From positions 11,757,381 to 11,821,380 of the forward strand of contig NC_049979.1 in NCBI RefSeq assembly GCF_000003815.2: 64,000 nt of DNA, given 5' to 3'. The position numbers and the translations under genes were made by a program. The notes under the pieces are model-generated. The model did no database searches. It was not told the DNA's origin and worked only from the letters and a program-made list of their open reading frames with translations. Positions 58,801 through 61,800 of the stretch are shown in pieces (positions within the stretch are counted from its first letter, which is position 1; the number at the start of each line of letters is the position of its first letter). The stretch comes from Branchiostoma floridae (lineage: Eukaryota > Chordata > Leptocardii > Amphioxiformes > Branchiostomatidae).

Positions 58801-61800
58801 TGTTGCAATAACATTTTATCTCTGTACTATGTTAGCTATTAACACAGATGAACTTTTGTACTAATTTGTTCTTGTGTTTTTATTGTAGTTATTGTCAAGG
58901 CGACCAACGGTCCTCGCTATGTGGTGGGCTGCAGGCGACAGGTACACAATGACACTTGTTTACCCTAAACTTTGCCTGCATGTGGGTCGTGGGTGAAACA
59001 CAAAGATTCTGATGTATTCAGTGACAGTGTTACATTGTGAATCATAACCTCCTTACTATTGCTTTAGCCATGTAGGAAAGATAGAGGTTGAGTTAAGTCA
59101 ACGGGAGGTTGGGCAATGAGAAAATATATTCTTCACTTGCTGGTATGTACAGACCAACCTGTAATAGAGACCACCACTGCAATAAGCACCAGCTAGCCAC
59201 TGTGGCCACTTGTTTGACTGTATTTGCAAAGCTCTCCACCAAATAGAGTACTCCTTTGTAGAAAGTTGGACCATTGTTTTGAGTATCACCCATTCACAAG
59301 TTTTCACAAACAATTAGGTCCAGATTCAAGTCTGGATCGGGACTTGATCTTCTGGACCTGAGCCGTACCTGAATTTTCTCTACCGGTACCCACCCGTATT
59401 AGCCCTGCTAACATGTCTCCCTCTCTCGAAGGTCGACAAGGCCAGGCTGAAGGCTGGCACCCGTGTGGCTCTGGACATGACAACTCTCACCATCATGAGG
59501 TCAGACTCAAGCTACAAAACTGACTTACTTTTACATGTCTGTCTTTGTCGAAGCTTTCTAACTGTAACATATTACTAATTTGTCTGCAGATCTACAATAC
59601 AGTCAAAACTATTAATGGAATAACACCTGTCTGCTTTCTGGATCAAAGTTTAACTGTAATTTCCAGCATAAAAGTTTTTGAGTTAGATGTTACAGTTCAA
59701 TTTTGATCCAGAGTAACTTCAACCAACACAGATGAGATGTCAAGTTAACCTGTATGGTTTGTGCAGGTACCTTCCCCGTGAGGTGGACCCCCTGGTGTAT
59801 AACATGTCTATCGAGGACCCGGGTGAAGTGTCCTACTCACAGATCGGAGGACTGGCAGAACAGATCAGACAGCTCAGAGAGGTGAGATTATGTATGGATT
59901 ACAGCTTATTCTGGATGATCGACGCTGAGGGGAAAGTCTGGATCCAGGGAGTGACTGTAGTCAGAGTCAAGTTTACCTACTAGTCCTTTGTTTACATCAT
60001 GTCCTTCCACTTAAATTTTACTTGATATCTGCAAGGACGTTACATCAGAAGGACTGAGTTCAGACTCAGTGCCTATTCATCAAGCTTCGATTCATGTGTG
60101 AAGAGAGCAATTGACACCTAGATATGAATTACCCCTGATTTGCATAGATTGCAGGCTGCCACAAGCATCCCTCTATTGTAACACAAATTCACTATAATGG
60201 TGTGACTTGGGTTAGACCTTGGTTTTGAGTGATATTTTGAAGAAGTTCTTGAAGAATTGGAGACAGCTGGATGTCATGCAAACAGCGCAGAACTAGCAAT
60301 TGCAGTAACACTTTTACTTGCAATACGTAACGGTTTATAGCTGACTTTACTGGCACAATAATTGACAGTGACACACCAGACTTAATGTTAGAAGTTTACT
60401 TTAAAAACAATTTTGTATTTTAAGAGCATCCTTATAAAAAAATTCTTACCTTCAAGACCCGTTCATAACAAGGACGTTATATAACGTCCTTGTTCATCCT
60501 TTGCTTGCGTAGCGCAAGTGTGCTTGCGTAGCGGAAATAAAATTATAAACGGTGGGGAGGGGGGATCTTTATTCATCGCTACCGTCAAGTCTGATATCGA
60601 CTCGGAGATTTACAAGATATAACCGTTACTTATTCTATTTAGAAATAACGTTACAGTTTATAAAAATAGAACACGATGATTACTACTCTTGCTTCAGTTG
60701 CGTGAATTTTTTTATTCAGACTATGTGGCCTTTTCGGCAAAGCTGTATGCTCTATGACGTCGATTGAGTGGCCTTCCCTTCCCCAGCAGTTTGCGACCTG
60801 AAAATGCACAAACATGGACTCGATAAGATTGGGAACCTAGATGTACAACGTTAACGTTACATAAACAAATTGATATGAACTTGTCCGCACATGTCTCCGC
60901 GTATTCCGGCATGTAGCAAACGATTTTAGCTTCAGAAGTTCCCCAACGATCCCCAAAAAGTACGGACTTTTCCCCCTCCCACCACTTTGTTGGTTCACTG
61001 AGGAAGGCCATCTACGGCATTTTGTTACACTGTGAGCAAAGTTTTGAGCTCCGAGATCTGGAAAAATCAGCCGGGCTCTGATCAAAACAATGCAGGAATG
61101 CAGAAAAATGGGTCCGTACTTTCATGGGAAATTTTTCGCTAAAACAGGAAAATTTGCGAAACTATGTTATAGCAGCATAAATCTGTGCATTTTCTTACAT
61201 ATTTAGCGGCCGAGAATATGAAGAGATTTGGACGAAAAAGTCCGTAAACTCACCCATGATTGTCCTACGACGATCAGATAAACACCAAAATGTCCGCCAT
61301 TTCTTTCTCTAAAAGATGCAGACTTCTGCGCATGACAGAAACGCTCCCCAAATAAGGAAATAGTCGGAAAACAGCTGGATTCCGAGCGAGTCCTCGGGAC
61401 GGCTCGGGCTATCTGATGTCATAGCGATGCTCATTAATATGTAATTTCCAGCAAAACCCCGCGAAAACCCGCACCGGACGTTCTATACAAAGAAGTACCG
61501 CGGCGGGGCAGGCACAAAAAAAGGCAGCGGGATTTCGCACGGCGAAACAATGGGCGCAGCGGGGTGTTAACTACGTGCTCAGTCCTCCTGATGTAACGTC
61601 CTTGATATCTGAGAGCAAAAGAAAGGAATAAGTCTAGCCTAGATAAGCTGTATGAATGAAGCTCTCCTGTTTTTCCTGGTGCAATCTGTGATAAATGAGT
61701 AACGCTGGATACACCCATTTCCATGTCACCTAATTGTGTTTTTACTGCAAATCTGTGGCCAGCAGGCTATCTTAGCCTGGGACATTTTAACAGTTCTGAT

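Follow-up and report, generated by a model that had tools for sequence, protein, structure and literature searches.

The 1573-bp element at positions 60032-61604 of the window is very probably a non-autonomous DNA transposon that is mobilised by a transposase of the P superfamily and whose excision leaves its two tips behind, joined to each other. By the window we mean the whole stretch of amphioxus DNA that was analysed, 64 kb in length (C1:11757381-11821380); all genome searches covered 513,431,437 bases in 431 contigs. The P-type class, which the first-pass annotation had suggested, is supported by sister families with matching ends, and was accepted because coding relatives with such ends encode a P-type transposase. 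It agrees with the 7-bp flanks and with scars of up to 2 x 17 nt, and the P-type domains themselves come from these relatives and not from the window element's own family.

The window element and its copies

The element (60032..61604, without assigned strand) was delimited by its inverted ends and by comparison with other copies. Its left terminal inverted repeat lies at 60032..60058 (+) and begins with the 17 nt CAAGGACGTTACATCAG, and the right repeat lies at 61578..61604 (-), both placed by end alignment. The arms are 27 nt long and complementary at 26/27 positions (96%). On either side stands a copy of the target duplication ATATCTG, at 60025..60031 and 61605..61611 (both unstranded). In the window copy taken alone, a flank of as much as 10 bp would fit the letters, since the left ATATCTG is preceded by TTG and the element also ends in TTG; the other copies fix the length at 7. 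Inverted ends of about 27 bp, exact ATATCTG flanks and an intronic position had all been described beforehand, and all three were confirmed.

By exon matches, the gene whose intron contains the element encodes an AAA-ATPase. When joined, the exons align with 26S proteasome subunit 10B across all 56 residues (4.4e-25). VCP-like ATPases give the better score, over residues 3-56 (2.9e-32), which makes PSMC6 a likely but unproven identity for the host gene. Seven reading frames of the element matched no Pfam family up to E 1, and tRNA and Rfam scans of the whole 64-kb window gave 0 hits. An open frame at 56609-57010 (-) of the window appears to resemble the terminal portion of a protein from a non-LTR retrotransposon.

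The genome-wide search with the terminus, which had been proposed as a check, gave 110 exact matches for the 17-mer CAAGGACGTTACATCAG and 0 for the reversed control. Seven long copies are known including that of the window, with lengths of 1538-2604 bp and each with a different exact 7-bp duplication; past nucleotide 17 their ends read NAGGACTGWG. The window copy is 94.8-97.5% identical to five others of its size class and, in two blocks, 95.7 and 98.2% identical to the 2604-bp copy. The six copies of 1.5-1.6 kb are mutually 94.4-99.7% identical, and the 2604-bp copy is 92.3-98.2% identical to the other long copies, again in two blocks. From this high identity the family appears to have moved recently. 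Within the 2604-bp copy, an open frame (L018:432-1313, +) presumably represents a fragment of a non-LTR reverse transcriptase, as judged from its motifs. Copies of intermediate size with exact duplications measure 236 bp (L049) and 436 bp (L090). No coding copy bearing the family's own CAAGGACGTTACATCAG 17-mer was found; among the candidates, L090 was rejected as a 436-bp deletion copy and L089 has no P-type gene visible by eye.

Tip-to-tip sites in the window and the genome

Four other loci of the window that run from CAAG(G) to CCTTG had been regarded as tip-only remnants of the window copy. Three of them, at 37504, 51423 and 52875, indeed have exact 7-bp flanks (all tip-only loci are unstranded). 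The excision scar at 51416..51473 (inner part 51423-51466), read directly from the sequence, consists of TGGAAAC, a 4-nt left tip, a 23-nt AT-rich insert, a 17-nt right tip and TGGAAAC. Its filler is built of short internal repeats with a 7-nt match to the right tip, and matches the insert class of Drosophila P repair junctions. In the scar at 52868..52900, likewise read from the sequence, CTAAGAC encloses on both sides a 19-bp join (52875-52893), in which a 6-nt tip is joined to a 15-nt tip with GA common to both; the same junction recurs at a second site, in region L026. Both scars are situated close to exons that seem to belong to an inositol polyphosphate multikinase gene. The third locus, 37497..37542, carries tips of 15 and 17 nt (37504-37535) between two copies of TACACAC, and by its flanks and a 17-mer of its own it is a scar of a sister family.

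The fourth locus, a 24-bp tip-to-tip palindrome at 60469..60492, is nested in the window element. It is recognisable in 7/7 long copies examined, as is the short locus at 60515; both were rejected as independent scars, since they are parts of the element. The flanks of the palindrome (TTCATAA and TTCATCC) are identical at 5/7 positions, and it is likely an ancestral excision scar. As 60469 and 60515 are internal and 37504 belongs to the sister family, the scars around the window copy do not descend from it, and this part of the first-pass annotation had to be abandoned.

We compared the loci with chance in two scans. Scan A, run with no preset motif, looked for exact 7-bp repeats enclosing inverted ends that matched at 9/11 positions or more. 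It found 3 loci in the window, 2 of them short and 3/3 starting with CAAGGA, while 60 dinucleotide shuffles gave a mean of 0.63 loci (max 3) and a mean of 0.05 short ones (max 1). The count of 3 alone is thus within chance, but the common CAAGGA start and the two short loci are beyond it. Scan B took all 4-nt tips with 7-bp flanks and found 10 short loci in the window, of which 4 had the tip CAAG, one of the four (60515-60526) lying within the element. In the shuffles CAAG was absent in 970/980 and present once in 10/980.

If the 32-bp scar at 37504 is taken for a join of 15 and 17 nt, the sister end should read CAAGGAGCTTTTATCAG. The prediction held, as this 17-mer has 729 matches in the genome and its reversed control 0. 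A sample of 30 sister loci on C1 came down to 27 distinct places, the window's own scar included. At 15/27 an exact 7-bp partner was found, in 12 scars of 21-35 bp, one 51-bp site that retains internal sequence (L101) and two copies of 1187 and 1188 bp. The other 12/27 had no exact 7-bp partner, and 6 of these resemble one tip carried in another repeat. In L096, L097, L099, L110, L116 and L124, the one-sided sister tip is preceded by GCTTCCAC within what appears to be another dispersed repeat. The ends of the window and sister families are alike at 20-21/27 positions, depending on the copy.

For the window family, 84 regions were fetched around listed CAAGGACGTTACATCAG matches; they cover 98/110, and 2 more are the window's own. 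A partner end (tip of at least 3 nt) with an exact 7-bp duplication was present in 58/84 regions. Among the 26/84 without one, L083 is the end of a long copy, L088 is the 436-bp copy that has its exact duplication once extended (as L090), L092 has flanks matching at 6/7, at L062 and L064 the duplications are exact and the partner tip is altered, and L032 is a one-sided tip fused to its duplication; in several others no duplication was seen. From these data we assembled a set of 50 scars, leaving out the window's scars, L021 (a 73-bp double scar) and copies of 80 bp or more. A 17-nt tip served as anchor for 49 of them, and the remaining one is the 19-bp scar in L026, which was noticed next to another scar. 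Tips longer than 17 nt were allowed, and because one 17-nt tip was required, joins of two short tips are missed.

The scars measured 31 bp (n=18), 34 bp (11), 28 bp (6), 24-26 bp (6), 19-23 bp (3), 32 bp (2) and 29, 33, 35 and 39 bp (1 each), so that 48/50 were no longer than 34 bp, or 2 x 17 nt. Five were perfect 17+17 scars, in which CAAGGACGTTACATCAG is fused to its own complement with zero nucleotides between, and their duplications all differ (GTATTCC, ATGGTAC, ATTAAAC, GTTAGTG and TGAGTAG). Perfect 17+15 joins were likewise prominent. In the tip-to-tip sites sampled, the flanks surround the tips alone. In many scars tips print as 18-19 nt since A, G or C was accepted at position 18, which leaves total lengths unaffected, and in L014 the tip possibly extends to 21 nt. 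Four groups of regions have common flanks (L024/L076, L030/L045/L093, L031/L039/L081 and L061/L082) and each group may represent a single site multiplied as part of a repeat; therefore up to 3 of the 50 scars are possibly non-independent.

We also searched for tip-to-tip sites without an anchor, using the pattern CAAGGACGTTA N0-30 TAACGTCCTTG. It gave 307 sites in the genome, the palindrome nested in the window element included, and 0 for the reversed pattern. Among 50 listed of the 307 sites, 40 were 34 bp or shorter, with 24 bp (n=10), 31 bp (n=9) and 34 bp (n=10) represented, and 10 were longer (35-48 bp), some through inserts. One site, C2:29120478-29120519, is a perfect 21+21 palindrome and exceeds the 17-nt rule. 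The corresponding sister-family pattern gave 380 sites and 0 for the reversed control; among 50 listed, 39 were at most 34 bp (31 bp n=16, 34 bp n=1) and 11 were longer. The 34-bp ceiling is therefore not absolute, as about one fifth of the unanchored listed sites are longer.

P transposase of Drosophila cuts one strand 17 bp inside the element end, according to the available text of PMC7776569. End joining of the resulting 17-nt tails gives the order duplication, tip, microhomology or insert, tip, duplication, as described in the accessible part of PMC2895639. As far as can be read from the sequences, the pile-up of scars at or below 34 bp together with the 17+17 joins is the predicted signature of such P-type cleavage 17 nt inside, followed by end joining. 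By this mechanism, which we infer from the end products, the transposase would make two cuts at either end, one exactly at the boundary of the element and one, on the opposite strand, 17 nt further in. The element would then depart, a 17-nt single-stranded tip would stay on each flank, and end joining (blunt, by short microhomology or with small inserts) would unite the two tips in a palindrome-like scar flanked by the target copies. That excision leaves both tips behind, as had been suggested from the window, is supported by the length distribution and the 17+17 joins.

The scars might instead stem from interrupted gap repair, in which synthesis from a sister copy restarts at both ends and halts early, giving deletion derivatives of any length. 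Longer derivatives do exist, such as the 436-bp (L090) and 236-bp (L049) copies, the sister L101 site of 51 bp and the single 21+21 palindrome. However, a pile-up at 34 bp or less, where 48/50 scars fall, is not expected of deletion derivatives, and five scars stop exactly at 17+17 though the repeat reaches about 27 nt in long copies. We consequently consider gap repair an improbable source of the scars. It is very improbable that the palindromes of 31-34 bp are tiny mobile elements that transpose by themselves, although the same 31-mer, in either orientation, occurs in 15/50 scars (13 if three common-flank scars are counted once). Against this stand the diverse junctions, with lengths of 19-39 bp, inserts and asymmetric tips. 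P elements have subterminal transposase sites, and these would be absent from such short units. P repair in Drosophila, too, produces certain junctions repeatedly, and two were recovered 14 times each (Table 1 in the available part of PMC2895639).

The target duplications are mostly of 7 bp, with 8 bp in a minority. Flanks were checked at 20 of the 24 listed C1 sites from the unanchored search, three sites already seen and one letter-identical to its neighbour being left out. These 20 sites were not selected by flank; 12 had exact 7-bp and 2 exact 8-bp duplications, and 6 were imperfect, with one mismatch (n=3), two (n=2) or three (n=1). The 8-bp duplication of hAT elements is thus not the prevailing one. 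A lack of consistent flanking duplications had been named beforehand as evidence against the reading, and the copies, being mostly flanked by 7 bp, do not show it; the 7-bp length claimed as in Galileo and 1360 likewise holds for the genome copies. At L155, one of the sites with exact flanks, the 17+17 join is formed by a variant tip that has T at position 12. Symmetrised over 59 loci, the target reads TnnGTnnnACnnA, and 36/63 duplications start with GT or end with AC against 12.1% in the window background (binomial 1.7e-17, assuming independent sites, which a few are not). Region L021 has tandem insertions at one 7-bp duplication. On the right flank of L015/L095, two copies of GAACTAC enclose a 17-nt sister tip and then a single G, so that two families share one duplication.

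Coding relatives in two further families

A genome search for the transposase gave at least 39 matches (best 59 of 136 candidates scored), of which two, on C19 and C11, were near full length; the others among those scored were pieces, many with stops. PF21787 had at least 3 matches in the genome (best 10 candidates scored) and none in 14 control genomes. The candidate at C6:14994104 was rejected as a fragment. At C17:8027864-8028481 there is an N-terminal transposase-like frame of 325 aa with 40% identity to residues 5-210 of the C19 protein.

The C19 copy (C19:10308832-10317273, 8442 bp) has sister ends identical over 31 bp and CTCTAAC on both sides. One uninterrupted frame of 767 aa contains RAG1_imp_bd (7.1e-8) and PF21787 (8.6e-22), and separate frames downstream, presumably exons, match PF21788 (1.9e-5) and PF21789 (3e-8). 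The GTP-binding domain PF21788 was seen in the C19 copy only, with 25.5 bits against a cut-off of 24.8; the one likely frame tried in the C11 copy gave no match. The C11 copy (C11:17071456-17080139, 8684 bp) belongs to a third family with perfect 30-bp ends starting CAAGGAGGTTGAATAAG and AAGTCAT on both sides. It matches RAG1_imp_bd (7.2e-10), PF21787 (6.5e-21) and PF21789 (3.3e-7) in the same order as in C19. Here the N-terminal part is read in one frame and the RNase H part in another that overlaps it, and one stop falls within the match, and therefore the gene may be broken or spliced.

The N-terminal part is a zinc domain of the RAG1 N-terminal type, located at L129:3192-3545 (+) in the C19 copy, in the same frame as the core, and at L130:6647-7009 (-) in the overlapping frame of C11. 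The two are 57% identical over 115 aa, and the domain alone matches Pfam RAG1_imp_bd with 9.7e-12 and 8.8e-11. When a profile of the two sequences was run against PDB, the top three matches were RAG1 (7.3e-7, 3.3e-4 and 3.3e-4), whereas the single C19 sequence placed RAG1 first at E 0.22 only; the C11 core frame had no match in PDB. No THAP domain was matched in the C19 and C11 copies, either in 7 reading frames scanned up to E 1 or, up to E 0.01, in the Pfam scan that detected the P-type domains; a small separate exon could escape such a search. The P-type helix-turn-helix PF12017 matched residues 502-547 of the C19 frame weakly (E 0.042, 14.7 bits against a cut-off of 23). A second frame of about 350 aa is convergent with the transposase in both copies (L129:8177-9262 (-) in C19 and L130:543-1595 (+) in C11). 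It is 54% identical over 355 aa and had no Pfam match up to E 10 and no credible PDB match.

The expectation of an autonomous copy with the same ends and a THAP/P-type transposase was thus borne out in part: a P-type transposase is present in the sister and third families, with a RAG1-N-type domain and THAP undetected, and no coding copy with CAAGGACGTTACATCAG ends was found. The P-type RNase H core of these families, with PF21787 and PF21789 in both copies, the 7-8 bp duplications and the 17-nt stagger as read from scars all agree with the P superfamily. An N-terminal THAP was not found, and we file the elements under P by their catalytic core, as a variant. Neither the 5-bp duplication nor the Transib-type core of RAG/Transib elements was seen, the core matching TNP-like families. 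The chance that the window element belongs to hAT, Mutator or another superfamily with short duplications is close to negligible, for although terminal CA..TG is found in several superfamilies, the duplications are mostly of 7 bp, tips of up to 17 nt are kept and the coding relatives have P-type domains. The enzyme acting on the window family would resemble those of the 8442-bp and 8684-bp relatives, with a P-type RNase H core and accompanied by a second convergent gene. Its N-terminal RAG1-type zinc domain would presumably bind DNA or protein, a task for which THAP is used in other P transposases.

Relation to known systems

These relatives suggest, with moderate confidence, a P-superfamily lineage in amphioxus in which a zinc domain of the RAG1/Chapa type replaces THAP at the N-terminus and a second, convergent gene is present. 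Kapitonov and Koonin (2015) state that, among known transposable elements, none outside the Transib/Chapaev group encodes the Chapa domain, which belongs to the N-terminal region of RAG1 (available part of PMC4411706). If the lineage is real, P-type and Transib-type transposases would have exchanged the RAG1 N-terminal region, and the Aplysia N-RAG-TP may be a P-type element with catalytic exons that were overlooked. The combination of a RAG1-N-type domain with a P-type core bears on the origin of those parts of the V(D)J recombinase that lie outside its core. Our literature search returned no report of the window family or of a P-type core with a RAG1-N domain, and a Repbase or Dfam entry may exist. 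The accessible part of PMC5802833, on amphioxus transposons, contains no mention of P elements, and that of PMC7204232 mentions neither P elements nor N-RAG-TP. The 17-nt stagger of P was measured in Drosophila, and hundreds of natural chordate tip-to-tip sites point to the same stagger, so that its conservation can readily be tested on them. With their recurrent junctions, microhomology and inserts, these sites also document how end joining proceeds in nature.

With RAG1 and the Transib-Chapaev group (Chapa domain), the amphioxus relatives share the N-terminal zinc domain, by Pfam RAG1_imp_bd and PDB profile matches. They differ in their P-type catalytic part and in the 7-bp duplication, compared to 5 bp in that group (PMC8355894, in its available part). 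The Aplysia N-RAG-TP is likewise a transposon, described as made up of RAG1-N-like sequence in the same portion of PMC8355894. Zebrafish Pdre2/THAP9 is similar as a vertebrate P-type element with internally deleted copies, but has 13-bp ends, 8-bp duplications and a THAP domain (available text of PMC7776569 and PMC10983969). Galileo has 7-bp and rarely 8-bp duplications with the target consensus GTANTAC, as given in the accessible part of PMC4168063. The amphioxus families share the 7-bp length, and their target forms a GT..AC palindrome that is similarly laid out, though less pronounced; the inverted repeats of Galileo are very long and internally repetitive, in contrast to 27-31 bp here (27 bp in the window copy). 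The P element of Drosophila differs in its 8-bp duplication, where ours are mostly of 7 bp, and in its end sequence, and the amphioxus relatives differ from it in having a RAG1-N-type domain with THAP undetected and a second convergent gene. It resembles the amphioxus elements in cleavage 17 bp inside the end and in the form of the junctions (PMC7776569 and PMC2895639, in the parts available), in the P-type RNase H domains of the relatives and in the GTP-binding domain of the C19 copy.
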